Shown here piece by piece: positions 22,048 to 64,000 of a DNA stretch of 64,000 nucleotides (positions are counted from its first letter, which is position 1; every line of letters starts with the position of its first letter). The notes beneath the pieces were generated by a model. It had not been told where the DNA came from, searched no databases, and was given only the letters and a program-made list of their open reading frames with translations. Source of the stretch: Kappaphycus alvarezii (lineage: Eukaryota > Rhodophyta > Florideophyceae > Gigartinales > Solieriaceae). Made by a program: the position numbers and the translations under genes. The stretch is taken from NCBI GenBank assembly GCA_002205965.3, contig NADL03000547.1:185824-249823 (forward strand). The letters run 5' to 3'.

Positions 22048-22049
22048 TC

Positions 22050-22062
22050 TGGTAGCATCGCC
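22050..22062 (+). other. Probable primer-binding site
   Basis: TGGTAGCATCGCC begins two bases after the LTR end, where the CCA-ending 3' terminus of a host tRNA normally pairs. The tRNA was not identified. Confidence 0.6.
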
Positions 22063-23119: not shown

Positions 23120-23179
23120 CAGTGCAGACCGATTCTTGCTGTGCAAATTGGAAAAATTTAATTCAAAGGAAAAAACCAA

Positions 23180-23760: not shown

Positions 23761-23805
23761 GAAGTAAAGTTTCTTCTTCGACCTATCAACCAATAGGAAA
23801 AGACC

Positions 23806-24760: not shown

Positions 24761-24789
24761 TCAGTTCGAGATCAAGGAAATCTCATTCT

Positions 24790-25447
24790 TTCAACGGTAA
24801 GATCCAAACAACCAGTTAGGGCCACACCGACCCCAACCTTCCAACGCTACCACCGCGGACTTCTTATTGTTAAAGGAGTAATTTCCAACGGACCAGCTAA
24901 AATCCTCATTGACCCCGGCGGTGAGGTTAATTTCCTCAGCAAATCATTTTGCGATCACCATAAGATTAAAACCGAAGAATCAGAAGAACTTGCCGAAATG
25001 GAGAATGGTGTTGATCAAAAACTAATGGAAACACCGCATCCTGTTATCTTCCAGATAAGAAAATACACTGAACCACTGTACTTCGCCATAAGCCCCCTGA
25101 AGAGGTATGATGCAATCCTTGGGAAAGAATGGTGTGGATCCCATAAAGCGATTATCGACACCGCCGAAAATCAAGTTTCATTCAATTATAAGGATGAAAA
25201 TTACGTTATTGCTGCCAATGAAAGGCTATTGAATTCTTTCGTTTCCGCAAATTCAATACTCACTGATTTAGAAAAAAATTATGGGACATATGCAGTACTT
25301 GTGAGACCCCTAAGTTCAAAGTCCTATTCTAAGGAAACCTATTACGGAGAGATTCAATACATACTTACCCAGTATGAGGATGTATTCCCAAACAGACTTC
25401 CAAAAGGCCTCCCCCGAAGAGGAAGTATGATTTCAAGATTTAATTAG
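24790..25447 (+). pseudogene. Chromovirus aspartic protease with altered active site
   Basis: AKILIDPGGEVNFLS near 24911 holds the catalytic Asp, but the D-T/S-G signature is D-P-G, which would remove the fireman's-grip hydroxyl. The flap and C-terminal half (YDAILGKEWCGSHKAIID, near 25100) are typical. A TAG at 25445 separates it from the RT. Confidence 0.8.
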
Positions 25448-25449
25448 AA

Positions 25450-26760
25450 AAAGAAGCAAAACCCCAGAAAAAGGGTCTCTACTGTCTTTCGGACAAAGAA
25501 ATGGGGGAACTTCGCACGCAGCTAGATGAGCCTCTGGAGAGTGATTTCATTAGACCAAGCAAGAGCCCGTGGGGAGCCCCAATTCTCTTCGTGACAAAGA
25601 AGGACAGCTCATTGCGGATGTGTGTGGATTACAGAGCACTCAATCGGCTTACTGTAAAGAACAGTTATCCACTGCCACGCATAGAAGATATATTTGATCA
25701 GCTCAAAGGATCAAAGTACTTCTCCAAAATAGACCTGAGGTCAGGCTATCATCAGATCAGACTGGATGAATCTTCAATACCCCTCACGGCATTTAGAACT
25801 CGATATGGACATTTCGAATTTCTGGTATTGCCATTTGGATTGACAAATGCCCCAGCGACTTTCATGGGCCTTATGAACGACTTATTTAAAGATGTACTTG
25901 ACGTTTTTGTTATCGTATATCTGGATGACATTCTTATATTTAGTAAGACATGGGAAGAACATTTGAAACACATCGCTGAAGTATTGGAGATCCTTAGAAG
26001 GGAAAAGGTATTCGCGAAATTGTCAAAGTGTGTCTTTGGTGTCAAAGAAGTGGAGTATCTTGGGCATATCATATGCCAGGAAGGAATTTCTGTGGATCCC
26101 AACAAAATTAAAGCCGTTATGGAATGGCCGACGCCTCGGAACAAACAACATATTTAGTCATTCTTAGGGTTTGTAAATTATTGTAGACGGTTCATTAAGG
26201 GTTGTTCCTTAATTTTGAAACCACTTACCGAGTCGACAAAGAACGTTTGTTTTCATTGGACAGAAACTTAAGAAAAATCATTTCAAACCTTGAAAAAAAT
26301 ATTGTGCAACGCTCCAGTCCTTCGAAATTTCGAGTCAAGTCTACCGATCTATGTTACTACAGATGCTTCCAAATACGCAATTGGTGCTGTATTGGAACAA
26401 GGAACCGCGAAGGACAAAAGACCAGTCGCTTTCGCATCCAGAACTTTAAATGATGCCGAACGGAATTATGCAGCCCACGAAAGAGAGCTATTGGCCATTG
26501 GGGACTGCCTAAAGTGGTGGAAAGCATACTTGTATGGGAATTTTTTCACTGTTCATTCTGACCAATCCCCATTGAGATACCTCGAGACACAAGATAATCT
26601 GTCACAGAGACAGGTTAGATGGTTGGAAAGATTAGTTGACTTTGATTTCAAGATTATACCCATCTCCGGGAAATCAAATATAGGTGCCGATTCCCTCTCA
26701 AGACAACCCCATAATGTACCCTCACCCCATCATCGAAACAAAGGGCTACTCGAAAAAGTA
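25450..26760 (+). pseudogene. Chromovirus reverse transcriptase and RNase H
   Basis: RT (25501-26157) has [52 protein letters not shown] and the YLDD box at 25918-25929, followed by VEYLGHII. After a TAG at 26155 the connection SFLGFVNYCRRFIKG continues. RNase H (26290-26700) has TTDASKYAIGAVL (Asp), HERELLAI (Glu) and HSDQSPLRYL (Asp). The motifs are complete, so only the stop and shift near 26200-26290 prevent function. Confidence 0.9.
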
Positions 26761-26899
26761 ATAATGAAGACATGTTCGGAATCAAACAATATTTCTGTTC
26801 CGTTTTTTGAATCATCCGATCTTGAAGAGCTTGTAAAAGACTACCATCGAGATGAAAGCTTCAAAGACGAGTACAAAGATCCGAAAGCACCTTTCGAAA

Positions 26900-28240
26900 G
26901 AAATGGATCGCTTTTGTTAAGACAAGGAAAAATTTGCATACCAGAAGGAGCGTTTAAAGTCAAGTTGTTGCATGACTACCATTCGACTCCAAATTTTGGA
27001 CTCTTGGGAATATCCAAAACAATCAATAGAATATCACCGAAGTTTACTGGAAAAACTTACGTGCTGATGTCCTTTGGTACCTTCGTTCTTGTCACTGCCA
27101 AACGGACAAACCATTTAACCAGAAACCTGCAGGTCTTTTACAACCTCTTGATCCACCGAAAACCAAATGGACTCACATAACGAGGGACTTTATTACACCA
27201 CTTCCAAGGTCAAAGGAAAGAAACAATGGCATCTTAACTGTCGTTGACAGATTATCAAAGATGATCAGAATTATACAAACCAAGCCTAAAATAGATGCTC
27301 CTTCAACTGCCAAGCTGTTCAAGGACCACATATACAGAAACCAAGGAATTCCGACGAATATCATTTGTGATAGGGATTCTATTTTTATGAGCAAATTTGG
27401 AAGAGTCTGTTCCACCTTCTGGGTACCAAGATATCCCCTTCTTCAGCGTATCACCCACAAACAGATGGACAATCTGAGATTATAAACAGAAAGATCGAAG
27501 AAATGATTCGTTCTTTTGTTAGCTTCGACAAGTTGGATTGGGACAAATACTTGGTAGACTTCGAAGTTGCTTACAACTCATCCATTAATGCTACTACAAC
27601 ATTCTCTCCGTTCTTCCTCAATTATGGAGTACACCCTAAAACTGTCCCTTTGGATATACTCTCCGCAGACAACCCTGCCGCAACACAGTTCCTGAAAAAC
27701 ATGCAAGGATCACTGAAAAAAGCCCAAGAACAAATCAAAAAATCAAATGAATCCACTGCCTTGTATGTCAATAGAAGTAGAAGACCCTCTTCGTATAAAG
27801 TTGGTGACAATGTCTGGTTGTCCACAAGAAACCTAGCTTTTGAAGATGGTGCAGGATCTCGAAAACTAAACCCGAAGTATTGTGGGCCATTCGAAATATC
27901 TGAGGACTTAAACGGAGTTACGTACCGTTTAATTCTTTCCAAACCAATGATCGATAGAGGAATTCACAATGCTTTCCATGCTAGTCTCCTTAAGCCGTAC
28001 TTTGAAGATGAGTTTGATCAAAAAACTCCGCCGCCACCACCTATACAAGTTAAGAACGGACAAGAAGAATACGAGGTCGAAACCATTCTCACTCACAAGA
28101 GACAACACGGAAAAACCAAATATCTCATTAAATGGAAAGGATATGCAGACCACGAGAACTCATGGCTATCAAAGAAGGATCTCAAAAATTGTGAAGATCT
28201 GCTACACAGATACAAGAATCGGGGCAATTCTTCTTCGTAG
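26900..28240 (+). pseudogene. Chromovirus integrase and chromodomain
   Basis: The zinc-binding part starts at LLHDYHSTPNFGLLGISKT (near 26965); the Cys pair is displaced by a shift near 27030-27080. The core shows the first Asp in ILTVVDRLSKM (27235), the second in IICDRDSIF (27365), and Glu in the SEII segment near 27475. The frame 27503-28240 holds the rest of the core, the GPFEISEDLNGVTYRL barrel and a chromodomain (YEVETILTHKR...YLIKWKGYADHENSW, 28065-28230) with the aromatic residues that read methyl-lysine. Frameshifts at about 27170 and 27420. Confidence 0.9.
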
Positions 28241-28250
28241 GGGGTAGTGA

Positions 28251-28768
28251 TGTAACGATTGTGCCCCCAAATCAATTAAGACATTACTGACAGTATCCCG
28301 ACAGTAACCGTTACCAAGATTTACACTGTACCAAGAACATCAGTGCAACTCGTGCACTGTACCCAGACAACGGTGTAAAACACAAGACCCGTACCACCCC
28401 GTGCCGAACCAATCACATAACGCCATTGTGACGATCTCGCGTGGTTCTCGAAACTTCTCCCACCTCACTAATCAGCAATTACGTTATGTCTTCTTTCCAT
28501 TTGGACCAATGGAACTTTGCTATGATGTTTTCTGCTGTCAATCTCCCTGATAGTTTCTACGTGAACCTTCACACCCTTTTAGTTTCATGCCTTTAGGGCC
28601 CTTCTTCTAGAACACCTCTCAATTTAGCATTGCTTGCCTACAATCTACCATTGCCGTCGTTGAGTACTATTTCTATATAAAACCTGTTCTGAAGCTCCGG
28701 CCTGTTTACCGGAAGCATCAACCAACAGTTCAACCATCGATTACCTTGTGTGCGCCCAAACCCCCACA
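28251..28768 (+). repeat. Chromovirus 3' LTR (518 bp)
   Basis: Begins TGTAACGATT right after the purine-rich TAGGGGGTAGTGA (28238-28250) and ends CCCCCACA. About 90 bp not in the 5' LTR (28320-28410) include CAGTGCA...TGCACTG and TTTACAC...GTGTAAA inverted pairs. Confidence 0.9.
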
Positions 28769-29364: not shown

Positions 29365-30600
29365 TATCTTCGAACGTTGACCAATTGGAAGAAAACCACA
29401 GATTCAGTCCTTCTTGCGACGAAAAAAAGTGTCTTTCCAGAGCATGAAACGCTTTGCACTGTTTCTGACTGCGACCTTATTCTTCGTATCCGAATTTGGA
29501 ACTCGTTCTTCGGCTAGGGACCATCATGTGTCTAGCAGGTGCGGTTCCAAGCCATCAAACTTTGGGTGTGCCCAATCCACTGTTGCTACCAATCCTTCTG
29601 TTATGTTCTCGTTGTTTCTTCTTTCCGATTCCTTGTAAGTTCTTCGCGAAATAGAATCGGCCGCTCCATTCTCCGGCCCCGAAGATTCTTCATCTCGAAG
29701 TCGTATTCCACCATCAAGGTCATTCACTTTGCCAATTGACCGTGAACATCTTTCTTTTTGAACGCAGTTTGAAGGGATTGGTGATCAGTATAGAAGACAA
29801 CATTCTTATCAAACAGAAGGTACAATCGGAACTTCTTAAGAGCGAAGGCCACCGCAAGTCCTTCTCGTTCAATTGTGGAGTAGCGGCGCTCCTTGTCCTT
29901 CATCGCTCGAGAAGCGAACTGAATTTACTTTACAGTCCCCTTTCTTCTGCGATAGTACCAATCCAAAATCCCTTAAAACCCCTAAAACCCCTATATGACC
30001 GATAAAGTTCACTTCTGATAGCGCAAAGCTGCACTTGGTTACCTTCAGATTCAACTTCGTTTCTTGAATACTCCTGAAAACCTCTTTGCTATGAGTTATG
30101 TGTTCCTCAACGTCTTCGAGAAAATTACAACTTCGTTCACGGAGCAAACGGTAACCCGCGAAGGACCCAGTCCATCGTCCTCTAAAACGTCCCTGGAGCG
30201 TTCATGAGTCCAAATGGCATCACCTCGATTTTATTTGTTCTATACTGAGATAATAAAAAAGTCATCTTTTCCTTGCACAGCTCGGACATTCTAACTTGCC
30301 AGCATCCTATGTAAAGGTCCAACCTCGTGAAGAACTCTGTGGCAGAGAGTTCGTCGAATATTTTTCTATTTTCGGTAGCGGTAAGCAGTCTGGCTTCATC
30401 AACCTGTTCAACTCACAGTAGTTGACACAGAACCAGGACCTTCCGTCTTTCTGCATAGCTATCACTACCGAAAAGGACCAGGCAGACCTTTACGGCGTAA
30501 TGATTTCAGCTTCCAATAATTAATTCACTTCTTTCCTTACTAGTTCAGTATGCCTTTGCGGCATTCGACAGGCTTTCTAATGTATCGAAGCCTCGTCTGT
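29365..30600 (-). pseudogene. Element D RT and RNase H, strongly decayed
   Basis: RT blocks recognisable on the minus strand include QVRMSELCKEKMTFLLSQY and MPFGLMNAPGTF near 30290-30190, and the LKVTKCSFALSEVNFIGHIG segment at 30060-30000 (frame 29869-30147). RNase H remains are scattered at 29930-29700 over three frames. No intact catalytic Asp pair was seen. Confidence 0.65.
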
Positions 30601-30603
30601 GAA

Positions 30604-31359
30604 CTACAACGAATGTATCACCGGCACCTGAGCAGGCATCAGATCGTGAATGTCCCATTCGATGACATCCGTATCCTTGAGAGCATTCGCCAGCCCCTTC
30701 TGGTTCTTCTCTTCTAGGCGGTCCAACTTTGAGGCCGCTAAAGCCGAGCGATTCACCTCCACTTTTACCTCTCTCTTAACTTCACTCTTCGCGGAGCGAA
30801 GTAGATTAGTTTCGTACGGTTCCTTGTTAAAGATGGCTAAGACCAGGTCTTGTTGGGTATCCGATCCGCTATCGTTTTCACTGGAGGGCGGCAAGGGTTG
30901 GAGAGTTTCCTCATTGTCCGAACCTTTGAGAGACTTAAAGTCCTCACTGTTCGTCTGAGCCCTATTTATTCTGGACAAATGATTGAAGATTGGTAACAAA
31001 ACCTCTTCTTCTCCTATATCCAAAACGACGGGCTGGGGTGCATAATAGATGCGCGTCTGGAGGGCTTCCAGAGTCTGATTTCCAACATTAACGTCGAACG
31101 GGGCATTGCTGACCACCAGGAACTCTTGGCGCACGACCATTGACCCGTAAGACACCGGCAATCCTCTGAGACAATAAGAACCCCAGCAATAGTTACGTCT
31201 GCTACCATCACCCGAGGATCTATCTCCGTCGGGATGGGTAACAGCTTTTGGCAGAGGTCCCAAGAGATCAGGTTGGGAACTGCACCCGTGTCCAGAAGTG
31301 CATGAGTCTTTGATACATACAACCACACGGCTACTACCTTGAGTCAGCATGGAAACCAT
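30604..31359 (-). pseudogene. Element D protease and protease-RT linker
   Basis: HALLDTGAVPNLIS (near 31300-31260) is a retroviral-type aspartic protease signature in the frame 31014-31328; the overlapping frame 30604-31359 gives the C-terminal half (VVSNAPFDVNVGNQTLEAL) and an acidic linker (TNSEDFKSL...NDSGSDTQQ) leading to WDIHDLMPAQVPVIH, the start of RT. The same linker with NSEDF/DSEDF is found in C, A and B, which ties the four elements together. Confidence 0.75.
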
Positions 31360-34912: not shown

Positions 34913-35990
34913 GTGGATGAATTGGTGCTGGCGATCTTAAAAAAGGAACAGTATTTGCCCGATCTAGAAGGTCTGATGTTGGAAGAGGGATCCACTGAGG
35001 AAGACGAGGAAGCGGATCACGCGGCGTTTCTCGTCTTGATGGTGGAGCATCTCGAGGAGAAGAACCAGAAAAAGGTGTTGAATGCGCTAAAGGAAATGAA
35101 AGTGATAGCGTGGGACATACATGATCTGGAGCCGGCTTGGGTGCCGGTAGTACATTTTTTCGAGTTTAAAGACGAGACCCCGATAAAATTGAAATCCAGC
35201 CGAATACCACCGAGGCATACCGAACTGATAAGGAAAGAAGGGAATGAGTTATTGGAAGCTGGAATTATCACGCCTTCTAGTTCCGCCTGGTCCATTCCGG
35301 TAGTCATTGGCAAGAAGAAGGACGAAAGGCCCTGGTTCTGCGTCGATTACCGTCAGCTGAACTGGGTGATGGAGCCATAACGCTGGCCGCTACCGGAAAT
35401 AGAAGAAATCTTCGACGATCTCTCCGGCGCGGAGTTCTTCATGACGTTGGAACTTTACAAAGGATACTGACAGGTTAGAATTTCCGAACTGTGCAAGGAA
35501 AAGAAGACGTATTTGTCTTGATATGGAACATACAACCTCGAGATGATGCCTTTTCGACTTAAAAATGCTCCAAAAACGTTTCAAAGGATGATGAATGAGG
35601 GCAGTTTGCCATAATTTACGTGGACGATGTTATAATATTCTCTAAAACGTTGGACGAAAACATAATTCACTGCAAAGAGGTCTTCAGGAGGATCGAAGAA
35701 GCGAAGTTGAAGCTGAAGCCAACCAAGTGCAGATTTGTCCAGTTGTAAGTGATGCTGCTCAGTCATATTGCCAATTAGAGCAGTGTGAAGGTGGATTCCT
35801 ACAAGATCAAAGATGTCGTGGAGGCCCCTGTGACGGAAAATATGACTGAGCTGAGGAGCTTTCTCGGGTTGATAGGGTACTATTGACTCTTCATACGGAA
35901 CTTTTCACATAGCTCAGCAGTGAGGCACGCTGTAAACTCCGTTAAGTAGGCATTTGAGTGGACCACGGGAATGCAGGAGGATTTCGAGTA
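34913..35990 (+). pseudogene. Element C reverse transcriptase
   Basis: Acidic linker, then WDIHDLEPAWVPVVHFFEF, SSSAWSIPVVIGKKKDE, FCVDYRQLN (to 35380, stop), then WPLPEIEEIF...MTLELYKGY (usual SIDL is TLEL), MMPFRLKNAPKTFQRMMNE and YVDDVIIFSKTLDE near 35620-35660 after a deletion. Later blocks are in several frames. Confidence 0.8.
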
Positions 35991-44495: not shown

Positions 44496-44925
44496 ATTTG
44501 ATGACTTGTGGATATCTCAGAGTGACAGCTGGGACGGGGCACTTTCTTCCATAGTTCTTCTTTCCAAAACTTCATTACCGTGGAATCTTGCTGTGTTTGA
44601 TTTGGGTTTACGGGAATTTCGGCAAGGTAAGTGGGGTCAAAAGCGCCTAGTTCGTTGAAGAACGGATCCCCTTGGATTTGGCGGACGAAATTGCGCAGGT
44701 TATATCATCATCGTCGTCATCGCTGGCTATATGAGCATGAAGCAGGGCAAATCATATCCTTCTTTGTACTATATTCTTTAACAGGACATGATTATTGGTT
44801 TAAGTGGAACTTACGGCGAAGATATTCTACGAGAATAATACGATAAGTTCGAATATTTTACTGTCGTTATGAAATAGAAGTTTGATATGACGAAAGACTC
44901 ACTGCCTCCCTTTGAATATACAGGA
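44496..44925. other. Left flank of element A, no gene recognised
   Basis: Part may continue the RT family toward its thumb on the minus strand, but no motif is clear. The five bases before the LTR are CAGGA and do not match the bases after the 3' LTR of A (GTCTA). Confidence 0.4.
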
Positions 44926-45642
44926 TGATGTGCGCAAATTCGCACACGAAAAAAATCTAGATGAGGACCATGATTGTATACAGTATCGGAATTGGGAAAT
45001 ATTTTTACAGTTTTTGAATTTGCAAGATATTTTTAATTTGGTGAGTGTGGCAAATTCGTCGGTTGATTTTTTCATTTTAGGACACGCTGTCATAGTAGAT
45101 GTCAGTACAGTTCCAGGTTGTGGGTGATACTACAAGTAGCTCTGAAAGGTCTATATAATGGCCACATCAATTCCCACCCCTGGCCGATGGGTGGCTGGCA
45201 TGGGTATGGCACCTAGATATTTACCTTGAGGAAATATCTTCTAATAGTCTCTCTGGTTCACACGATTACCGTGAATACATTTTATGGTTATTAGTATGTT
45301 TGTTTGAGACTTTTAGGGTAGCCAAAAGTCTATATAAGCCGAGTAAACTGCTTCCTTTAGTGGAGGTGAAGCAAGTTGGCAGACAACTTCAAGCCAAGTC
45401 CCGAGTAGTAGGAAGTTGAGAGTCAACTTCAGACCCAAGAAAACTTTTTCTTACGCTGTCGCAGAGCGTCAGTGGTAGACCCTGCCCCTTTTATACTTGC
45501 TTGTAGCTTCTCAACTCTCTTCTATATACACTCCCTTTTGTTCGTTCAACAATACCACGGTAGCACTTTTGTCGCTCGCAACACCTCCTTCTCAGGGTAA
45601 TTGGTTCTGAGGATCTCTTCCCCCGCCGATTTACCCCTATCA
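44926..45642 (+). repeat. Element A 5' LTR
   Basis: TG...CA, 717 bp. The first bases contain the inverted pair TGTGCG...CGCACA. TATA boxes: TCTATATAATGG (about 45150) and TCTATATAAGCC (about 45331). Two hairpins of the type AAGTTG...CAACTT lie at 45373-45389 and 45412-45430. Differs from the 3' LTR by substitutions at 45315, 45471 and 45561 and a few 1-base indels. Confidence 0.9.
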
Positions 45643-45644
45643 TT

Positions 45645-45662
45645 TGGTACTCTTGTGGAGGG
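45645..45662 (+). other. Element A primer-binding site
   Basis: TGGTACTCTTGTGGAGGG starts two bases after the LTR and is identical in element B (57971). The primer would be a tRNA ending ...AGAGTACCA; which tRNA was not determined. Confidence 0.65.
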
Positions 45663-45730
45663 GGTTGCACCCGAGGTATTCGAGTTGAGCAGTAGTAAGG
45701 AACACTTCGGGGGGATTTCTTTTCGTAATC

Positions 45731-46655
45731 ATGGATCTCAATGCTGCTCGTATAACGTTCACAGGGGCAAGACTGAAGACGTTGAGGAGTTTCTTTACAC
45801 ATATGTCAACGTTGTGATGCGAGAGAAGGGCGATGAAGAGAAGGCCGCAAGTATCTTCGCCTATCTTCATGGTGACGCAAAGCACAAATATAAGTCCAAG
45901 TTTATCGACGGGTGGTCTCTTAACGGGAATGGGCGTAACTTCGGTGAGGTATGTGAGTGGCTTGTGAAAGAGTATGCTAAGGAGGTAGAACCAGATGAGA
46001 TGATTCGTACCGCCATAGAGGCCCGGCTCAACTTCGACGATTTGTTAAGCTCATTGGTGTACTTGTGTGATCTTTATGAAAAGGCTGGGTTCAACGCCCA
46101 AGCCAAGTACGGAATGCTGCGTAAGGCGGCTATGGGGATAAGCGGCTCTCCGATTTCCTCCTCATCAAGGGCCCTCACACTTTTGATGAACTGAAGGGTA
46201 CCATAGTAGAATTTGTCAAAAATTCGGAGACGTTTCAGTCACTGAGTGAGGTACCGAGGGAAACCCGCACATCGATGTCTATCGTACATCCTGAAAAGAA
46301 TTATCAAAGGCCGGCTACTAGTGCAGCGGCATTAGAATCTGTCAGGAGCGATGTCAAAAACTTGGAAGAAAGGTTGGAAACCCGATTCGATAATCGACTT
46401 GACATGATAACCTCGCAGTTGGAAAGCCTTACTCTTACCATTAAGAAGAACCAGTCTGGGGCCCCTAAGCCGCAGAAGTCTGTTCTTACTGTCACAAGCC
46501 TGGACACTTTGCAAACAGGTGTCCTGATAATCCACATAGAAACACTCGTTGTGCAAAGTGCGGTCGATATGGGCATCATGAAAGTAACTGCTGGTCTAAA
46601 GACAACAGAAGAGCAAATTTATCGGAAGCAAGGAGTGAGTCAGGACCAGAGGTGA
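45731..46655 (+). pseudogene. Element A gag and nucleocapsid
   Basis: The ATG at 45731 gives MDLNAARITFTG; after the G4 run at 45764-45767 the gag frame continues one base out of phase (KTEDVEEFLYTYVN...), in A and in B alike. The core (MREKGDEEKAASIFAYLHGD, WLVKEYAKEVEP) follows to 46135, where A has one G less than B. A second missing G near 46469 puts the two CCHC knuckles (in frame in B) out of frame. A coiled-coil (SDVKNLEERLETRFDNRL) precedes the knuckles. Confidence 0.85.
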
Positions 46656-47670
46656 AAATCTTACAAAATAGAAGGGATCAAAGGTTGACGGATGCCGGTA
46701 ACGTATCCATCGCTGAAGAGATTAGTCAAGTCAATGTGACAAAAAGGGATGGGGAAGGGAACATTTTATCGAAGAAACCTAGGCTAGAGTATGGAATGCT
46801 GGAGCATATCCCAGCACCTGTACCTCCTCGAACCAAGAGGTCTGATCAAGTTGTTCCAGGAGTGGGAGTCACTCCGGCCAAGAAGACGAAAAAGAGTAAG
46901 AAAGTTAAGAGTATCTCTAAGGACGTACTAGAGTATGTGAAGAGGTACAATTTGGTGGCTGAGCTTGCATCGGCCCCAACTGGGATAACGTTTGGTCAAC
47001 TTTTGAGGGGCGACGCAGAGGATGCGAGAAAAGAACTCAAAAAATTATCAGGTCTAATAAGTCCGCTAAGGGTAAGAAACTGTTTCTTCAATCGGCCTCG
47101 ACAGCACCAAGACGTCTTAAGCTGGTACCAGTCAAAGTATTGGGTATGAAAACCCAAGCTCTCTTCGATTCGGGTGCTGTTCCAAACCTCATTTCAGAAA
47201 CTTTGGTGACAGATCTAGGTCTCGAAATTACTCCAACGACTCGAAAAATAACTGTAGCGGATGGAACCGTCTCAAAATGCATGGGCACTGTTGACAAGGT
47301 TTCCGTGTTCTTTGGGGACTCTAAAGTTGATGTAGACTTTCTGTCATGCCGGATCTCCCTTTCGATGCAATCATTGGCTGCCCCACAATGGAAAGACTAG
47401 GGACATGCATTGACTTGGGCAACCAAATGGTTTCAGTTAATATTGACGGCAGAACCGTGAAGATGCCCCTGGATTTCGACAAAAGCACGCATCCTGAAGA
47501 TTTAAAAGAAACGGACAGTGAAGATTTCACTTCTAGCTATGACAGCGAAGATTCGGAACCAACTAACACTTTCGGAAGTGGAAAAGGGTACCCTCGGGGG
47601 TAATGAACATGGCATGGGACGATTATGATTCCGGGTTTGAAACAGATGACGACTGGATTCTAGGATAAGT
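46652..47670 (+). pseudogene. Element A gag-pol spacer and aspartic protease
   Basis: A Lys-rich spacer (AKKTKKSKKVKSISK, near 46880) leads to LFDSGAVPNLISE, catalytic Asp at 47167-47169, and DLPFDAIIGCPTMERLG near 47350. Indels versus B at about 47043, 47341 and 47399 break the frame. The acidic linker ETDSEDFTSSYDSEDSEPTN (47509-47568) follows. Confidence 0.85.
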
Positions 47671-49100
47671 TTGAAACCCGAATGTGTTTCTTTTTGCGAT
47701 GATATCGAATCAAAGGACAGAATTCGGAGCATGAAAGAAGATTACCTTTGCAAAGAAAATAAGAATACGTCGAATTCCATATATGAAGATGTGAGCACGA
47801 CGGAAGAGGTCCTTCAAAATATTGAGGTTGAGGATCAAGAAGAAAAAGGGCGCCAAATGGCAGAAATCCAAGGAAAAGTGCAGCACCTTCCCGCCCCCGC
47901 CTCACTGAAAATATCCGACATGTTAACATCTTCCGAAGTAATTGCATGGAGCGTTTCAGATTTAAGACAAGCAAGTGTACCGGTTACTCACTCGTTCGAA
48001 CTTACCGACACTCAACCGATTTACCACAAGCCTAGACGTCAACCGCCAAAATATGACCAATTTATCTCAGAAAATGTTACAAGTATGCTGAAAAATGATA
48101 TTATTCGACCAGTTTCATCCCCATGGTCGTTTCCAGTTGTGGTCGCACCAAAGAAGGATGGAAAGCTGCGTTTTTGCGTCGATTACCGACAACTGAACCA
48201 GAGAATGATACCCGATCGATTTCCGATTCCGAACATGGAGGAGATCCTCGAGGACCTGAAGGACGGGAGATATTTCACCTCAATTGACCTTTACACTGGC
48301 TATTGGCAGATTCCATTGGATGAAAAATGTAAGGAAAAAACAACCTTTACCAGCAAAGCCGGTACGTTCAGGTTCGAAGTGATGCCTTTTGGTCTCATGA
48401 ATGCACCAGCTACATTCCAAAGAATGATGAACGAGGTTTTGAAAGGACTTCCATTCGCAAGAGTCTATATCGATGATGTCGTCATATTCTCAGAAACATT
48501 GGATCAGCACATCTCGCACGTCAAGACAGTTGTGGAGAGGATATCGGAGTATAGCTTGAAAATTAAGTTGAGCAAATGCTTCTTTGCGAAAACTTCTATC
48601 CAATTACTCGGTCATATCGTCGACCAAGAGGGAATTAGAGTGGATCCAGAGAAAACGAAAAAAATAAAGTTGGCACCAAGGCCCGCTTCAAAGACGGAGG
48701 TCCGAAGCTTCTTAGGACTGGCCTCATATTACAGAAGATTTATCAAAGATTTCGCCAAGACTGCAGCACCGTTACATGCCAGCACTACGAAGAACGGAAA
48801 ATTTTACTGGAACAAGGAAATGGAAACTGCATTTCAGGAGCTTAAAGATAAGCTATGTGTCCCCCAGTTCTCATGTACCCAGATTTCAAGAGACCATTCG
48901 TTGTGGAGACAGATGCCTCAGAACGGTCTTTGGGTGCCGTTTTGTCCCAAAAAGATGAAAACGGAAGACTACACCCTGTTCAATTCGCAAGCCGAACTCT
49001 GAATGATGCGGAAAGAGATACTCAGTCTGCGAGAAAGAAGCGCTAGCTGTCGTCTTCGCGCTGAAAAAGTTTCGCGTATACCTTTTATCACTCGAGAAAT
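47671..49100 (+). CDS. Element A reverse transcriptase and RNase H
   Basis: One 443-codon frame carries the linker, SSPWSFPVVVAPKKDGKLR, FCVDYRQLNQRM, SIDLYTGYWQIPL, MPFGLMNAPATFQRMM, VYIDDVVIFSE (48462-48494) and IQLLGHIVDQEGI, then the connection SFLGLASYYRRF. RNase H follows: ETDASERSLGAVLS (48903), EKEALAVVFALKKF (near 49035) and ITDHQALK (49107). The frame shifts at about 48840-49015, where A and B differ by single bases. All catalytic residues are present. Confidence 0.9.
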
Positions 49101-49105
49101 TTGTC

Positions 49106-51688
49106 TTGATAACTGATCACCAGGCACTTAAAACAGCATTCCAAAAGAAGGATGTACATCACCGCTTGGCCCGATGGCTCGACATTTTCGCAGAATATCG
49201 GTTTGAAATTGTGTATAGACCCGGACGCAATAATCAGCCTGCCGATTACCTATCCCGCTTGAGGGACGCACTGATTCCAAATGAAAAAGCTTCGGAGGAC
49301 ATCGTCGGAGTCGCCGAGTTGCAGTTGCCGAACGATAACGAGTACGAAGCTAATATTCACGGACTGATCAAATTCCTCGATGGACTAGAAATGAGAAAGG
49401 TTGATCTTGAACACCGAAATTGGGTACGCAGGAATCAAAAGGCTTTTACATTGTGGAATGGGAAACTCTTCCGGCACACTAAAGCCGGTCCCCGACTAGT
49501 GGCCCCTTTGAAAGAAAGAATGAAGATCTTGAGGACTTTCCATGATGAGCTAGGGCATTGGGATCTCGAAACAACCAAAAAATTCGTAACTGAGAGATTC
49601 TGGTGGCCCGGTATCCATAAGGACGTCTATAATTTCGTGAAAAGCTGCGACAACTGCCAAAAATTCACTCCAATACGGAAGTATAAGACAACTCTAAGTT
49701 TTCCAGTTTCCGGTCTCTTTGAAACCTTCTCAATTGACTTCGCGGGCCCGTTCAAGGAAACTTCTTCCGGAAACAAATATCTCCTTATAGGGGTGGAACA
49801 TCTTACTGGATGGCCAATAGCAGTTGCAGTCGAGGAGGCAAATGCTGAGGTGGTACTGAGATTCATCGAAAAAGAAATAATTGAACCGTTTGGTCTTCCA
49901 AAAAGGATCATCTCGGATAACGCCCTTTGTTTTACTGCAACTTCACTGCTTCGTTTTTTGGAAGAGAAAGGGATTCAGCTGAAGACCGTTCTCGCATACG
50001 CTCCTATGTCCAACGGGAAAGCGGAGAGGATGGTTGGAACCATCAAACGAGCAATATCGAAAACTATGTCGGAGAATGAAATCCAGTGGGAAGATGCCTT
50101 ACCAAAAGTGTTATACGGCTACCGTCGAAGAAGAGGAAGAAATGGACGCTCACCATTCGAGCTAATGTACGGAAGGGCTCCTAGAATGTTACAGAGAGAC
50201 ATGGAAACAAATATTATCGATGAAGAGAGTAGGGAAGTTGAACTACTGGCCACCGAAGGCTGGAGATCACACCGCGCGCTAACACAGACAAGAAATAAGG
50301 ATGCAGAACCTGCAGTCAGAACCTTTTCAGTTGGCTCTAAAGTACTTGTAGTACATGGAAAAGCAATGCAGCAGGCTGTGAAGTGGCCGGCCTTCCAAAC
50401 CAAGTACTCGAACCCTTGCATCGTCACGGAGGAAAGACACCCGCACTATCAGCTCTGTTCAAGCTCAGGGAAGAGATCAAGGAGGGCCATCCATGCACGT
50501 CGTCTGGTCCCTTACCATCAGAGGCCTGAAGAATTCCTTCTCACACAGGACTATGCGCAACCACGGGGCATACTCATCTTTAACTATAGAATGATTCCTA
50601 TGGGAGGAAAAAGGGCCTGGGAATGGATCATCTCGGTTACGCGGGACTACTACGAACTCCACGTAATCATCCATTTCTACATTAATATATGCCTATGTTT
50701 TCGTACGTTGAACGGACCATTGCTACCTGAAGAAGATTTCCGACTATTAATAAGAGTTCTATTTTCATTCCAAAACGGAAGGTTCACGGAAGCAGGTCCA
50801 GAGTTTGTGGAGGTAATATATCATTACTCTATAGGAAGATATGGAATGGTAGCTGCTGGAGACTTGTCGCAAACGTATCTGAATATTATCCGTCCAATTT
50901 ACGTATTTCTCAAGAACAACCAAGACGTGCGACTGAGAGGTTACGCCTTACCCCCGGATATGGAATACAGGCTGGTCCCGTATCCTCTATGGGAACCTTA
51001 CGTTTCTCCGCCACAAATTGGGAACGTTGGAGGCGGCGAGGATCCTCCTGAAGCAGTGATGATGACCAGAGGAGGACCTTCAGGAGACAACAACCCGCCC
51101 AGAAGAGGTTCCGGTCGTCCCCCGAGAGGACCTCGTGCAGGTCCCAGTACGTCAGGAGCTGGTCGCGGCCATTCATCGGGACCGTCCACCACAACTTCAT
51201 CTCTAGCTCTCCTTCACAACCATGCACAGCATACAGTCGGAAGAAGAAGATTATCTTTTTGGCTGCGCAATATCTCCGAGGATGCGAACGATGCGCAGGT
51301 CATTTCTTATTTCATGATAAGCATCTGTTTATGTTTTAGGGCGCTACATGGACCGCACTTATCTTACGAAGATTCGTTCTTGATGATGCGCGTCTTCTTT
51401 TCTTATCGACATCCATTCCTCCGGCATCTTCCAGAAGAGTTTGCATATCACATATATTTTTTCACTCTTGGAAGATTCGGAAGAGTCACGGAAGAAGAAT
51501 GTATTCAACCCCACCTCGATGTTATCAAACCAATATATGAGGCTATGCTACAAAGTGAGGTACCAGTAATGCGAACCTACTTTTTAGAGCATCATATTGG
51601 TAATCAGTTGCATCCGTACCCGTTTGAGAGACCATACATTTTATCAATAAGACAGCGAACACTAACGGAAGCAGAAGAAGAGCAGTGA
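49106..51688 (+). CDS. Element A integrase with duplicated C-terminal extension
   Basis: An 860-codon open frame. Residues 1-60 end RNase H (PADYLSRL). The integrase zinc finger is at about residues 147-190 (FHDELGHWD...CDNCQKF), and the core has FSIDFAGPF, RIISDNALCF and NGKAERMVG (residues 207-315). The C-terminal barrel ends RRAIHARRLVPYHQRP near residue 470. The protein then runs on to residue 860: repeat 1 (503-633), a Gly/Pro/Arg/Ser linker (634-715), repeat 2 (716-850) and an acidic end. No chromodomain, signal peptide or clear membrane anchor is seen. The start at 49106 is an artefact of an upstream frame break; the protein is part of Pol. Confidence 0.85.
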   Translation: MITDHQALKTAFQKKDVHHRLARWLDIFAEYRFEIVYRPGRNNQPADYLSRLRDALIPNEKASEDIVGVAELQLPNDNEYEANIHGLIKFLDGLEMRKVDLEHRNWVRRNQKAFTLWNGKLFRHTKAGPRLVAPLKERMKILRTFHDELGHWDLETTKKFVTERFWWPGIHKDVYNFVKSCDNCQKFTPIRKYKTTLSFPVSGLFETFSIDFAGPFKETSSGNKYLLIGVEHLTGWPIAVAVEEANAEVVLRFIEKEIIEPFGLPKRIISDNALCFTATSLLRFLEEKGIQLKTVLAYAPMSNGKAERMVGTIKRAISKTMSENEIQWEDALPKVLYGYRRRRGRNGRSPFELMYGRAPRMLQRDMETNIIDEESREVELLATEGWRSHRALTQTRNKDAEPAVRTFSVGSKVLVVHGKAMQQAVKWPAFQTKYSNPCIVTEERHPHYQLCSSSGKRSRRAIHARRLVPYHQRPEEFLLTQDYAQPRGILIFNYRMIPMGGKRAWEWIISVTRDYYELHVIIHFYINICLCFRTLNGPLLPEEDFRLLIRVLFSFQNGRFTEAGPEFVEVIYHYSIGRYGMVAAGDLSQTYLNIIRPIYVFLKNNQDVRLRGYALPPDMEYRLVPYPLWEPYVSPPQIGNVGGGEDPPEAVMMTRGGPSGDNNPPRRGSGRPPRGPRAGPSTSGAGRGHSSGPSTTTSSLALLHNHAQHTVGRRRLSFWLRNISEDANDAQVISYFMISICLCFRALHGPHLSYEDSFLMMRVFFSYRHPFLRHLPEEFAYHIYFFTLGRFGRVTEEECIQPHLDVIKPIYEAMLQSEVPVMRTYFLEHHIGNQLHPYPFERPYILSIRQRTLTEAEEEQ
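50612..51004 (+). other. Extension repeat 1 (unknown domain)
   Basis: About 131 residues, predominantly helical and rich in aromatics. Key conserved positions shared with repeat 2: ICLCFR-x-L-x-GP, a following ED, RV-x-FS, P-E-F, IY, GR-[YF]-G, PIY and a closing PYP...PY[VI]. I recognise no family. Confidence 0.75.
51251..51655 (+). other. Extension repeat 2 (unknown domain)
   Basis: About 135 residues with the same ordered motifs as repeat 1 (ICLCFRAL-HGP, YED, RVFFSY, PEEF, IYFF, GRFG, VIKPIY, PYP-x3-PYI). By eye roughly a third of positions are identical, so the duplication is old relative to the A/B copies. Confidence 0.75.
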
Positions 51689-51708
51689 CGAGTCGGGACG
51701 TTCGTCTT

Positions 51709-51721
51709 GAGCGAGAGGGCG
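51709..51721 (+). other. Element A polypurine tract
   Basis: GAGCGAGAGGGCG directly before the TG of the 3' LTR, the expected plus-strand primer position, interrupted by two C. Confidence 0.6.
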
Positions 51722-52439
51722 TGATGTGCGCAAATTCGCACACGAAAAAATCTAGATGAGGACCATGATTGTATACAGTATCGGAATTGGGAAGATATTT
51801 TTACAGTTTTTGAATTTGCAAGATATTTTTAATTTGGGTGAGTGTGGCAAATTCGTCGGTTGATTTTTTCATTTTAGGACACGCTGTCATAGTAGATGTC
51901 AGTACAGTTCCAGGTTGTGGGTGATACTACAAGTAGCTCTGAAAGGTCTATATAATGGCCACATCAATTCCCACCCCTGGCCGATGGGTGGCTGGCATGG
52001 GTATGGCACCTAGATATTTACCTTGAGGAAATATCTTCTAATAGTCTCTCTGGTTCACACGATTACCGTGAATACATTTTATGGTTATTAGTATGTTTGT
52101 TTGAGACTTTTGGGGTAGCCAAAAGTCTATATAAGCCGAGTAAACTGCTTCCTTTAGTGGAGGTGAAGCAAGTTGGCAGACAACTTCAAGCCAAGTCCCG
52201 AGTAGTAGGAAGTTGAGAGTCAACTTCAGACCCAAGAAAACTTTTTCTTACGCTGTCGCAGAGCGTCGGTGGTAGACCCTGCCCCTTTTATACTTGCTTG
52301 TAGCTTCTCAACTCTCTTCTATATACACTCCCTTTTGTTCGTTCAACAATACCACGGCAGCACTTTTGTCGCTCGCAACACCTCCTTCTCAGGGTAATTG
52401 GTTCTGAGGATCTCTTCCCCCGCCGATTTACCCCTATCA
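51722..52439 (+). repeat. Element A 3' LTR
   Basis: 718 bp, TGATG...TATCA. At the three substitution sites that separate it from the 5' LTR (52112 G, 52268 G, 52358 C) it agrees with the 5' LTR of element B (57652, 57798, 57888). Confidence 0.9.
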
Positions 52440-53000
52440 GTCTACATCGCCTATTTGAAGTATAGAAGGGTGAAAAGGTTCTGGAAATGACGAGCGAGCA
52501 CAAGAAAACTCGATGGCAGTAGTCTTGCCGACTTTTGTCAGAAGTTAACATTTTCTGGACGCATGTAGTCTTTTCGGACTAGAAGAAATATAACATCGCT
52601 GGGCCGAAGTATTCGCGATGTACTGGCATGACTTGTGCAAGGAACCACAGCGCTTCCAGACGAGGTAAAATGGCGGCAGCGGTGTGATGGTATTGGCGGC
52701 TATTTCTTTATGGAACGTCACATTTGATTTTTTATCAGATAAGCAGGACTACAGCAAGTAATGCACGACTCCAGAAAGTGGGTTGCTACACTGTACCGCT
52801 GAAGTTTTTGGCGAATCGACGACCTGGACATTTCGGTAAGACTAGCATTCACCGTTCCCAACGGACCCATTCTTTTCTCTCTCAGCGCATCGTCATAGTG
52901 CTACAATTTTCACCTAAATCTTCATATCTAAATATAATTAAAAACGTACGGGGCTTACAGTTTTGTGGTTATATCCGCGGGGAGGCGCTACGATAATGTG
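52440..53000 (+). pseudogene. Tc1/mariner-like transposase fragment
   Basis: Spread over three frames: VFSD-stop-KKYN (first Asp, near 52570), YWHDL-like CTGMTCARNH region, GGSGVMV, FDFLSDKQDYSK, FGESTTWTF, SIHRSQRTHSFLS (52850-52880) and SSYLNIIKNVRG (52915-52950), where the usual SPDLNIIENVWG Glu is Lys. It begins exactly at the right edge of element A, so its N-terminal part is missing here. It is a different copy and subfamily from 5491-6555. Confidence 0.65.
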
Positions 53001-56560: not shown

Positions 56561-57252
56561 GGTAAGATGCCTTTCGACTGGTGACGAACAGGTCCCGATA
56601 AATAATCGAGGACCTGTTCGTCACTGGGAGTACTGACCGGATGCCCCGTTGAAATAGATATTTAGAAACGAGCTTCTCGTACAAATCTCTGGCCGCTTGT
56701 GCGGTTCGCATTCTCTCTCGTTGATTTGGGCATTCTTTGGGGGAAACATGGAGTAACAACGGTTACACGCCAAAAAAAAAGCAGTTATAGCACCAAAATA
56801 AGGTTGCAAACTGTGTTATTAATGTCTTGCACAGATTTAGCCAATGTGATGTCCTCAAGCAAGCGAGGTTGAACGCAGAGAATCTTTTCGTACATAGTGC
56901 ATAAAGTAGAATGGTATTTCTCTCCAGTCCGCAAGGAGTTATGGCTCTCCATACCATTGGTGGCTAGGCGAATACCTGCCTGTTCGCAGTTGTACTACCA
57001 TTCCTTCGGAAGGAACAAAGAACCTTGATCAGTGAGCACGGATTCCGGATTGCCAATGTACGTAGAGGACCAAACCTGCATTAAATTATTCCACAATTTG
57101 TTAGTGTCGCAAGCACGCAAAAATGCAAGAGCACTAAACCTAGTAACAGCGTCGATAATATGGAGTACAAGTCTCGCCTTCCGTCCCCGTCTGTGGCTTT
57201 TTAAGGTAAATGATATCGAGAATAATGCGATGATTGAATTTGACCTTGTCTG
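56560..57252 (-). pseudogene. copia-3 integrase core
   Basis: The frame from 57252 reads KSHRRGRKARLVLHIIDAVTRFSALAFL (first Asp) and ESVLTDQGSLF (second Asp, near 57030); after a break GMESHNSLRTGEKYHSTL (Glu, near 56930) and ECPNQRERMRTAQAARDLYEKL follow. The upstream zinc finger, protease and gag would lie beyond element B. Confidence 0.7.
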
Positions 57253-57968
57253 TGATGTGCGCAAATTCGCACACGAAAAAAATCTAGATGAGGACCATGA
57301 TTGTATACAGTATCGGAATTGGGAAGATATTTTTACAGTTTTTGAATTTGCAAGATATTTTTAATTTGGGTGAGTGTGGCAAATTCGTCGGTTGATTTTT
57401 TCATTTTAGGACACGCTGTCATAGTAGATGTCAGTACAGTTCCAGGTTGTGGGTGATACTACAAGTAGCTCTGAAAGGTCTATATAATGGCCACATCAAT
57501 TCCCACCCCTGGCCGATGGGTGGCTGGCATGGGTATGGCACCTAGATATTTACCTTGAGGAAATATCTTCTAATAGTCTCTCTGGTTCACACGATTACCG
57601 TGAATACATTTTATGGTTATTAGTATGTTTGTTGGACTTTTGGGGTAGCCAAAAGTCTATATAAGCCGAGTAAACTGCTTCCTTTAGTGGAGGTGAAGCA
57701 AGTTGGCAGACAACTTCAAGCCAAGTCCCGAGTAGTAGGAAGTTGAGAGTCAACTTCAGACCCAAGAAAACTTTTTCTTACGCTGTCGCAGAGCGTCGGT
57801 GGTAGACCCTGCCCCTTTTATACTTGCTTGTAGCTTCTCAACTCTCTTCTATATACACTCCCTTTTGTTCGTTCAACAATACCACGGCAGCACTTTTGTC
57901 GCTCGCAACACCTCCTTCTCAGGGTAATTGGTTCTGAGGATCTCTTCCCCGCCGATTTACCCCTATCA
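57253..57968 (+). repeat. Element B 5' LTR
   Basis: 716 bp, TGATG...TATCA. A 3-base difference in the GTTTG region near 57630 and one missing C near 57948 separate it from the 3' LTR of A; otherwise it is closer to that LTR than A's own 5' LTR is. Confidence 0.9.
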
Positions 57969-59788: not shown

Positions 59789-61904
59789 AGATGCCCCTGG
59801 ATTTCGACAAAAGCACGCATCCTGAAGATTTAAAAGAAACGGACAGTGAAGATTTCACTTCTAGCTATGACAGCGAAGATTCGGAACCAACTAACACTTT
59901 CGGAAGTGGAAAAGGGTACCCTCGGGGGTAATGAACATGGCATGGGACGATTATGATTCCGGGTTTGAAACAGATGACGACTGGAATTCTAGGATAAGTT
60001 TGAAACCCGAATGTGTTTCTTTTTGCGATGATATCGAATCAAAGGACAGAATTCGGAGCATGAAAGAAGATTACCTTTGCAAAGAAAATAAGAATACGTC
60101 GAATTCCATATATGAAGATGTGAGCACGACGGAAGAGGTCCTTCAAAATATTGAGGTTGAGGATCAAGAAGAAAAAGGGCGCCAAATGGCAGAAATCCAA
60201 GGAAAAGTGCAGCACCTTCCCGCCCCCGCCTCACTGAAAATATCCGACATGTTAACATCTTCCGAAGTAATTGCATGGAGCGTTTCAGATTTGACAAGCA
60301 AGTGTACCGGTTACTCACTCGTTCGAACTTACCGACACTCAACCGATTTACCACAAGCCTAGACGTCAACCGCCAAAATATGACCAATTTATCTCAGAAA
60401 ATGTTACAAGTATGCTGAAAAATGATATTATTCGACCAGTTTCATCCCCATGGTCGTTTCCAGTTGTGGTCGCACCAAAGAAGGATGGAAAGCTGCGTTT
60501 TTGCGTCGATTACCGACAACTGAACCAGAGAATGATACCCGATCGATTTCCGATTCCGAACATGGAGGAGATCCTCGAGGACCTGAAGGACGGAGATATT
60601 TCACCTCAATTGACCTTTACACTGGCTATTGGCAGATTCCATTGGATGAAAAATGTAAGGAAAAAACAACCTTTACCAGCAAAGCCGGTACGTTCAGGTT
60701 CGAAGTGATGCCTTTTGGTCTCATGAATGCACCAGCTACATTCCAAAGAATGATGAACGAGGTTTTGAAAGGACTTCCATTCGCAAGAGTCTATATCGAT
60801 GATGTCGTCATATTCTCAGAAACATTGGATCAGCACATCTCGCACGTCAAGACAGTTGTGGAGAGGATATCGGAGTATAGCTTGAAAATTAAGTTGAGCA
60901 AATGCTTCTTTGCGAAAACTTCTATCCAATTACTCGGTCATATCGTCGACCAAGAGGGAATTAGAGTGGATCCAGAGAAAACGAAAAAAATAAAGTTGGC
61001 ACCAAGGCCCGCTTCAAAGACGGAGGTCCGAAGCTTCTTAGGACTGGCCTCATATTACAGAAGATTTATCAAAGATTTCGCCAAGACTGCAGCACCGTTA
61101 CATGCCAGCACTACGAAGAACGGAAAATTTTACTGGAACAAGGAAATGGAAACTGCATTTAGGAGCTTAAAGATAAGCTATGTGTCCCCCAGTTCTCATG
61201 TACCCAGATTTCAAGAGACCATTCGTTGTGGAGACAGATGCCTCAGAACGGTCTTTGGGTGCCGTTTTGTCCCAAAAAGATGAAAACGGAAGACTACACC
61301 CTGTTCAATTCGCAAGCCGAACTCTGAATGATGCGGAAAAGAGATACTCAGTCTGCGAGAAAGAAGCGCTAGCTGTCGTCTTCGCGCTGAAAAAGTTTCG
61401 CGTATACCTTTTATCACTCGAGAAATTTGTCTTGATAACTGATCACCAGGCACTTAAAACAGCATTCCAAAAGAAGGATGTACATCACCGCTTGGCCCGA
61501 TGGCTCGACATTTTCGCAGAATATCGGTTTGAAATTGTGTATAGACCCGGACGCAATAATCAGCCTGCCGATTACCTATCCCGCTTGAGGGACGCACTGA
61601 TTCCAAATGAAAAAGCTTCGGAGGACATCGTCGGAGTCGCCGAGTTGCAGTTGCCGAACGATAACGAGTACGAAGCTAATATTCACGGACTGATCAAATT
61701 CCTCGATGGACTAGAAATGAGAAAGGTTGATCTTGAACACCGAAATTGGGTACGCAGGAATCAAAAGGCTTTTACATTGTGGAATGGGAAACTCTTCCGG
61801 CACACTAAAGCCGGTCCCCGACTAGTGGCCCCTTTGAAAGAAAGAATGAAGATCTTGAGGACTTTCCATGATGAGCTAGGGCATTGGGATCTCGAAACAA
61901 CCAA
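59789..61904 (+). pseudogene. Element B RT and RNase H, broken by single-base indels
   Basis: Same content as A. Breaks at about 59727, 60293 (two bases), 60593 (one G) and 61160 (one C) are all absent from A, while A's breaks near 47341 and 49015 are absent here. YIDD lies near 60790-60801; RNase H and the integrase zinc region read openly at 61180-61914. Confidence 0.85.
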
Positions 61905-64000
61905 AAATTCGTAACTGAGAGATTCTGGTGGCCCGGTATCCATAAGGACGTCTATAATTTCGTGAAAAGCTGCGACAACTGCCAAAAATTCACTCCAATA
62001 CGGAAGTATAAGACAACTCTAAGTTTTCCAGTTTCCGGTCTCTTTGAAACCTTCTCAATTGACTTCGCGGGCCCGTTCAAGGAAACTTCTTCCGGAAACA
62101 AATATCTCCTTATAGGGGTGGAACATCTTACTGGATGGCCAATAGCAGTTGCAGTTGAGGAGGCAAATGCTGAGGTGGTACTGAGATTCATCGAAAAAGA
62201 AATAATTGAACCGTTTGGTCTTCCAAAAAGGATCATCTCGGATAACGCCCTTTGTTTTACTGCAACTTCACTGCTTCGTTTTTTGGAAGAGAAAGGGATT
62301 CAGCTGAAGACCGTTCTCGCATACGCTCCTATGTCCAACGGGAAAGCGGAGAGGATGGTTGGAACCATCAAACGAGCAATATCGAAAACTATGTCGGAGA
62401 ATGAAATCCAGTGGGAAGATGCCTTACCAAAAGTGTTATACGGCTACCGTCGAAGAAGAGGAAGAAATGGACGCTCACCATTCGAGCTAATGTACGGAAG
62501 GGCTCCTAGAATGTTACAGAGAGACATGGAAACAAATATTATCGATGAAGAGAGTAGGGAAGTTGAACTACTGGCCACCGAAGGCTGGAGATCACACCGC
62601 GCGCTAACACAGACAAGAAATAAGGATGCAGAACCTGCAGTCAGAACCTTTTCAGTTGGCTCTAAAGTACTTGTAGTACATGGAAAAGCAATGCAGCAGG
62701 CTGTGAAGTGGCCGGCCTTCCAAACCAAGTACTCGAACCCTTGCATCGTCACGGAGGAAAGACACCCGCACTATCAGCTCTGTTCAAGCTCAGGGAAGAG
62801 ATCAAGGAGGGCCATCCATGCACGTCGTCTGGTCCCTTACCATCAGAGGCCTGAAGAATTCCTTCTCACACAGGACTATGCGCAACCACGGGGCATACTC
62901 ATCTTTAACTATAGAATGATTCCTATGGGAGGAAAAAGGGCCTGGGAATGGATCATCTCGGTTACGCGGGACTACTACGAACTCCACGTAATCATCCATT
63001 TCTACATTAATATATGCCTATGTTTTCGTACGTTGAACGGACCATTGCTACCTGAAGAAGATTTCCGACTATTAATAAGAGTTCTATTTTCATTCCAAAA
63101 CGGAAGGTTCACGGAAGCAGGTCCAGAGTTTGTGGAGGTAATATATCATTACTCTATAGGAAGATATGGAATGGTAGCTGCTGGAGACTTGTCGCAAACG
63201 TATCTGAATATTATCCGTCCAATTTACGTATTTCTCAAGAACAACCAAGACGTGCGACTGAGAGGTTACGCCTTACCCCCGGATATGGAATACAGGCTGG
63301 TCCCGTATCCTCTATGGGAACCTTACGTTTCTCCGCCACAAATTGGGAACGTTGGAGGCGGCGAGGATCCTCCTGAAGCAGTGATGATGACCAGAGGAGG
63401 ACCTTCAGGAGACAACAACCCGCCCAGAAGAGGTTCCGGTCGTCCCCCGAGAGGACCTCGTGCAGGTCCCAGTACGTCAGGAGCTGGTCGCGGCCATTCA
63501 TCGGGACCGTCCACCACAACTTCATCTCTAGCTCTCCTTCACAACCATGCACAGCATACAGTCGGAAGAAGAAGATTATCTTTTTGGCTGCGCAATATCT
63601 CCGAGGATGCGAACGATGCGCAGGTCATTTCTTATTTCATGATAAGCATCTGTTTATGTTTTAGGGCGCTACATGGACCGCACTTATCTTACGAAGATTC
63701 GTTCTTGATGATGCGCGTCTTCTTTTCTTATCGACATCCATTCCTCCGGCATCTTCCAGAAGAGTTTGCATATCACATATATTTTTTCACTCTTGGAAGA
63801 TTCGGAAGAGTCACGGAAGAAGAATGTATTCAACCCCACCTCGATGTGATCAAACCAATATATGAGGCTATGCTACAAAGTGAGGTACCAGTAATGCGAA
63901 CCTACTTTTTAGAGCATCATATTGGTAATCAGTTGCATCCGTACCCGTTTGAGAGACCATACATTTTATCAATAAGACAGCGAACACTAACGGAAGCAGA
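61905..64000 (+). CDS. Element B integrase and duplicated extension, 3' end beyond the window
   Basis: After a missing A near 61905 the frame is open to the window end with no stop. It has the integrase core (FSIDFAGPF, IISDNALCF, NGKAERMVG), the barrel, extension repeat 1 (from about 62937), the linker and repeat 2 (from about 63576). Only two substitutions relative to A were noticed (a silent change near 62155 and one near 63848), so the extension is kept open in both copies. Confidence 0.85.

Follow-up and report, generated by a model that had tools for sequence, protein, structure and literature searches.

A library-orphan, tandemly duplicated domain behind the integrase of a Ty3/gypsy retrotransposon in Kappaphycus alvarezii: a possible integrase-linked interaction or tethering module

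Why does the Pol frame of a Ty3/gypsy retrotransposon stay open for almost 400 residues after its integrase, and what could such an extension do? The question is raised by a stretch of 64,000 nucleotides from the red alga Kappaphycus alvarezii (the window), in which one LTR element is present in two copies of the same orientation, element A (44926–52439) and element B (57252 to the window end). An initial annotation had proposed a post-integrase extension with a duplicated domain, and in element A such an extension is indeed real: it comprises 388 residues (50522–51685) in the same frame as Pol, and Pfam places Integrase_H2C2 and rve upstream of it in its own frame (Table 1). Between the LTRs the Ty3/gypsy order of protease, reverse transcriptase, RNase H and integrase was found with Pfam, reverse transcriptase and integrase being matched in both copies, protease and the full RNase H in element B and a partial RNase H in element A.

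Table 1. Positions of the features of elements A and B within the window.
Feature	Position	Strand	Remark
5' LTR of element A	44926..45642	+	starts TGATG, ends TATCA; 99.2% identical to 51722-52439
Reverse transcriptase of element A	48148..48621	+	PF00078, E 1e-35
Open Pol frame of element A, RNase H to integrase to extension end	49007..51688	+	stop-to-stop, 893 aa; stop 51686-51688
Integrase zinc-binding domain (Integrase_H2C2) of element A	49505..49669	+	PF17921, E 9.9e-19
Integrase catalytic core (rve) of element A	49730..49996	+	PF00665, E 4.9e-9
D1, first orphan-domain copy, directly 3' of the integrase barrel	50522..51028	+	matching core from 50573; 35% identical to D2, 144 columns
Gly/Pro/Arg/Ser linker	51029..51208	+	pI 11.6
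D2, second orphan-domain copy	51209..51685	+	homology to D1; D2' of family 2 53% identical
3' LTR of element A	51721..52439	+	match to 5' LTR begins at 51722
5' LTR of element B	57252..57968	+	99.3% identical to 3' LTR of A
Integrase-D1-linker-D2 frame of element B	61875..63998	+	cut by window end; A vs B 99.66% identical

As had been claimed, element B keeps both domains open to the window end, but as independent support for the extension it fails, since the identity of the two copies amounts to 99.66% in an alignment of 6758 columns. As the extension contains a single substitution, the dN/dS between A and B, which had been proposed as a check, is uninformative. From the 23 columns differing between the two copies 18 are gaps, mostly at base runs, which look like long-read error, so that this assembly gives no basis for assessing frame breaks in other parts of Gag-Pol. 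The flanks of element A (44914–44925 and 52440–52449) show no matching target-site duplication, and element A may for this reason be the product of recombination between copies. The window also contains a second Ty3/gypsy element (21620–28709), a chromovirus with Asp protease, reverse transcriptase, RNase H, SH3_Tf2-1 and a clear chromodomain, standing between repeats about 6.6–6.7 kb apart that look like its LTRs. Long inverted repeats at 30255–30771 and 34997–35514 (411 and 109 bases, 73% and 83% complementary) have about 4.2 kb between their inner arms, and a Ty1/copia-type reverse transcriptase fragment is located at 3955–4785 (PF07727, E 1.2e-8).

D1 and D2 are homologous: 50 of 144 residues are identical without a gap (BLAST E 4e-30), and their local score of 243 compares with a mean of 30.6 and a maximum of 54 in 1000 shuffles. 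The two domains around a Gly/Pro/Arg/Ser linker noticed in the initial annotation are therefore confirmed, with a repeat unit nearer 145 than the 130 residues given there. Between D1 and D2 the synonymous sites have reached saturation (dS 3.9), which points to an old duplication; it may have taken place within the element, as had been supposed, or already before the element captured the domains. The linker has 60 residues, 67% of them G, P, R or S, and is the sole basic part of the extension, as D1 (pI 6.35) and D2 (pI 6.31) are slightly acidic and both aromatic-rich, which speaks against the earlier lean to nucleic-acid binding. The usual Kyte–Doolittle cut for a membrane span is about 1.6, and in this one crude hydropathy test it is reached nowhere in the extension, the best 19-residue mean of 1.44 being not far under it; this leans against membrane fusion, as had been argued from the start. 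Acidic, aromatic-rich domains with a basic linker and no span reaching the membrane cut let us prefer a protein–protein contact over a grip on nucleic acid or membrane fusion.

Structure prediction of the two domains, made from overlapping alignments, resulted in low-confidence models (pLDDT 56 and 41) with no usable fold, which agree solely in a mostly helical content and near-equal helix limits. Such predicted helices would be expected of a capsid domain, and the extension might be a structural module, a duplicated capsid-like or assembly domain. We regard this as highly improbable, as a comparison with the Gag region of element B gave a hhalign probability of 0.3% (a weak test with a 4-row profile) and the low-confidence models gave no significant structural match, which is again a weak test.

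Is the domain known from elsewhere? In Pfam, NCBIfam and PHROGs no match to the extension domains was obtained up to E 10 except for one PHROG of unknown function (E 0.23). Pfam found nothing up to E 10 in the extension, D1, D2, the database protein P0127 described below or D2', the D2 of a second family, and there is in particular no Chromo match that would make the element a chromovirus. The same library detected Chromo in the chromovirus of the window itself (27503–28240, E 2.8e-15) and in P0062 and P0077 as well as PWWP in P0037, so that the method does see such modules where they are present. The claim of novelty was therefore upheld by profile and library searches, and searching each repeat separately, as had been suggested, gave no family match either, with the predicted structures adding no fold that could be compared.

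No PDB sequence match was significant for the extension, D1, D2, D2' or the profiles. The best match for the whole extension, D2 and two profiles was the DNA-binding domain of Sap1 (E 0.5–1.7), a protein which according to the accessible text of one paper directs the integration of the Tf1 retrotransposon in fission yeast (PMC5741268), and together with the basic linker this would agree with D1 and D2 being nucleic-acid-binding, perhaps Sap1-like DNA-binding domains. We consider this reading improbable, because the E-values are not significant and the match is unstable over the members of the family, D1 alone having SNF8 and D2' alone NOP5/NOP56 as best and likewise not significant match and the two-row profile A1 having none at all. 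Moreover, the profile match weakened from 0.5 to 0.99 when one member was swapped for D2', the profile comparison gave a probability of 4.9% over 46 columns, and D1 and D2 are slightly acidic.

Among 5.8 billion proteins the extension searched as part of Pol found nothing, and as a stand-alone profile it found three proteins, P0125–P0127. These offer no firm evidence from outside, as P0127 is 100% identical to a place in this genome and P0126 matches one at 89%; P0125 may or may not belong to it. No homologue of the extension was present in phage records, viral contigs or prokaryote genomes, and in the databases searched none was traceable to another species. By these searches the domain appears to be an orphan, and a relative that lacks shared five-residue words or belongs to an unsearched genome may exist. 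A literature search over titles and the beginnings of abstracts, mostly without subscription journals, gave no description of such a module. What is new to the libraries used is the domain itself, while a Ty3/gypsy integrase with a C-terminal module is of an already known kind.

To the origin of the module the Pol relatives give a first answer. The nearest named one is P0015 from Chondrus crispus (44% identity over 57% of the query). Among the best 120 of 146 relatives none aligns beyond query residue 540, and nothing resembling the extension turned up in them (best E 0.58); 32 of these 120 have more than 150 residues after the aligned end. In a tree of 61 rows the element falls into a clade of 18 (support 100/99), consisting, besides the window's element, of L031, which is another family in this genome, and of 16 proteins from databases, Chondrus among them. 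In twelve of these 16 the alignment reaches the barrel end of the integrase, and each of the twelve ends at most 11 residues beyond it, whereas the other four stop aligning earlier; some of these protein ends may be contig ends and not stops. Mapping presence and absence, as had been suggested, shows the extension in none of these twelve. D1 and D2 are also absent, in every frame checked, from L031 and from L060, which lies downstream of it, and a separate downstream ORF was found nowhere in the relatives among stand-alone proteins of about 173–551 residues. As the relatives, that of Chondrus too, end at the integrase and L031/L060 have neither domain, the module was probably gained, likely once, on the branch leading to this family in the algal lineage.

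The assembly examined (336 Mb, 884 contigs) contains the whole extension in near-identical form at at least 106 places; these are the best-scoring 106 of 5890 candidates, and the absence of stops there is no evidence of intactness. The genome also has three matches to the phycobilisome family, as fits a red alga. A second set of 20 loci was picked by hand from integrase matches missing from the 106 places, and since one of them breaks off inside the integrase at a contig end, 19 were usable. In 17 of the 19, integrase, D1 and linker follow one another in this order with D2, or at least its first part, behind them, several of these loci having frame breaks; L050 ends at a contig end inside D2 and L057 loses D2 after its start. 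The two remaining loci are deletion derivatives. Four loci (L032, L033, L041, L054) share a single junction that joins residue 219 of the integrase (counted in the query piece) to residue 122 of D2, which tells us that a shortened, non-autonomous derivative has spread as well. The D2 tail of this derivative is saturated or nearly so in its synonymous sites compared to the D2 of the window. Two forms of the LTR were noticed: L001–L003, L005, L008 and others have only the 3' half of the LTR in common with element A, and more than 1 kb separates the extension from this common half in copies with the other form. For the insertion sites we collected 36 distinct 3' flanks, dropping 5' LTRs that precede a primer site and repeated flanks, with some flanks taken from diverged LTR matches. 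Insertion is dispersed in them, with no more than a weak preference (at position 2 for A, in 20 of the 36, and at position 6 for C, in 22), which gives no support to strong site-specific sequence targeting.

D1 is not always joined to the same type of D2. The loci L064 and L036/L059 match the window with 85–88% through integrase and D1, lose the nucleotide likeness at window positions 51013–51081, which is the border of D1 and linker, and resume it within the 3' part of the LTR, as seen in L059. Beyond the border they have D2' instead of D2. For L064 the synonymous change amounts to 33.5 of 110 sites in D1 vs 87 of 97 in D2 (Fisher p 1e-18 with rounded counts), a contrast as recombination would leave it. 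Compared with D2 and D1, the D2' piece L069 reaches 53% and 34% identity, respectively, and its DNA is 82–86% identical to the D2' of L064 and L059. As D2' is identical over 113 residues at all of the 150 places listed (from 5246 candidates), in frames of up to 1316 residues, this genome has no fewer than two young families with a D2 of this domain family. L064 and L036, which have D1, are probably old members of family 2 and suggest that D1 may be present in this family too. In an older third type (C519) D1, linker and D2 are present in this order too.

Is the module under selection? Ratios of dN/dS were calculated from Nei–Gojobori codon counts in ungapped pieces, comparing the element of the window with diverged copies. 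For D1 they are 0.20 (L038), 0.26 (L036), 0.29 (L064) and 0.62 (L037, with just 24 differences), for the integrase of the same loci 0.22, 0.31, 0.28 and 0.50, and in L034 both D2 and integrase show 0.16. Four of these five loci thus have 0.16–0.29 in D1 or D2 and the fifth 0.62, the value following the integrase of the same locus; in L056 D2 gave 0.65 on only 7 differences. When all pieces of more than 40 residues with an identity of 90% or above are taken together, the ratios are 0.41 for the integrase, 0.30 for D1, 0.72 for the linker (14 differences) and 0.09 for D2. Overlapping pieces entered the pools twice, and for L036 the integrase pool (393 codons) is larger than the query piece (375). 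The diverged loci represent old copies; some contain stops (4 in the D1 pieces counted in L064 and 2 each in L036 and L038), and part of their change is post-mortem, which would raise dN/dS and not lower it. D2 and the D2' of family 2 share 53% of their residues with 94% of the synonymous sites changed, and their pN/pS is 0.33 in frame vs 0.86 and 1.44 in the shifted frames. Constraint on the coding sequence is borne out by ratios resembling those of the integrase and not near 1, the value that for the initial annotation would have spoken against function, and the codon comparisons indicate that the orphan domain is a real protein, constrained about like the integrase.

These values bear directly on the idea that the extension is a passive passenger, a captured host segment without function. 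It would fit the missing homologue, the missing known fold and the spread of non-autonomous derivatives without most of the module (L032, L033, L041, L054), but integrase-like ratios of 0.16–0.29 in four of five loci as well as D2 and D2' staying open in two high-copy families after synonymous saturation had already turned the balance, and we hold it to be extremely unlikely.

What, then, might the module do? Our preferred, still tentative reading, to which we would give a little less than an even chance, is an integrase-linked accessory interaction or tethering module. We infer this from its position, in frame and directly after the barrel, where chromodomains are found in other elements. The two domains, an ancient tandem duplication held together by a flexible basic linker, would serve as accessory to the Ty3/gypsy integrase; still fused to it, D1–D2 would contact either other integrase subunits or a host protein of nucleus or chromatin. 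Through this contact the integration complex would be tethered or helped, a role that chromodomains and CR motifs may play from the same position, with D1 as constant and D2 as exchangeable part. Counting against tethering are the 12 relatives that do without the module, the weak site bias of the flanks, the models without a usable fold, the stops in the diverged loci and the ratios of 0.62 in L037 and, on 7 differences, 0.65 for D2 of L056.

Alternatively, the extension could be freed by the protease of the element as a separate accessory protein with a role in RNA export, particle assembly or host silencing and merely share the Pol frame. A cut may take place between integrase and D1, and the length of 388 residues, the start right after the barrel and the basic, disordered-looking linker would suit it. 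There is also a precedent, as the accessible text on Cer1, an LTR retrotransposon of C. elegans, describes the accessory protein CERV as needed for the nuclear export of its RNA (PMC10309623). Since the fusion to the integrase is kept in 17 of the 19 usable loci mentioned above, we think that release by the protease is rather unlikely and prefer the tethering module. A constant D1 with an exchangeable D2 further suggests to read D2 as putative recognition cassette. A bolder and distinctly doubtful version would be a new class of tethering module, in which a constant D1 is paired via the flexible linker with a swappable cassette, D2 or D2', and recombination between co-resident families would exchange this cassette, so that close elements of one genome might target, or be anchored by, different partners in the host.

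In any case a highly successful young retrotransposon has an integrase extension with a library-orphan domain under purifying selection. If the module tethers the integrase, it would be a new answer to the problem of site choice or tolerance without a recognisable chromodomain, and the two co-resident young families, which differ in their D2 type, allow the question of targeting to be tested by a natural comparison within a single genome.

Compared to known systems, the extension shares features with several and equals none of them. Some Ty3/gypsy elements have an env-like third ORF, which likewise is coding sequence between integrase and 3' LTR, but the extension lies in the Pol frame and has no segment at the membrane-span hydropathy cut. 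The PWWP family consists of chromatin readers, and in P0037, a Ty3/gypsy Pol from a public assembly, a PWWP follows the integrase at residues 1352–1433 after rve and p58_C; this is a known family, whereas D1 and D2 are without any Pfam match. Like the chromodomain of chromoviruses the extension stands in frame after the integrase barrel, but its length is about sevenfold that of the Chromo profile (53 positions), and it is duplicated and without a Pfam match up to E 10. In the plant CRM clade, as far as the accessible text of the CRM paper describes it, the C-terminus of the integrase varies between close families, which have a CR motif, a type II chromodomain or none of them, CR motif and chromodomains are grouped as putative targeting domains, and most LTRs have the ends TGATG and T/CATCA (PMC3059260). 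A duplicated domain of such size is not described in that text. The likeness to CRM lies in the related families that stop at the barrel, in the different D2 types and in the LTR of element A, which begins with TGATG and ends with TATCA.
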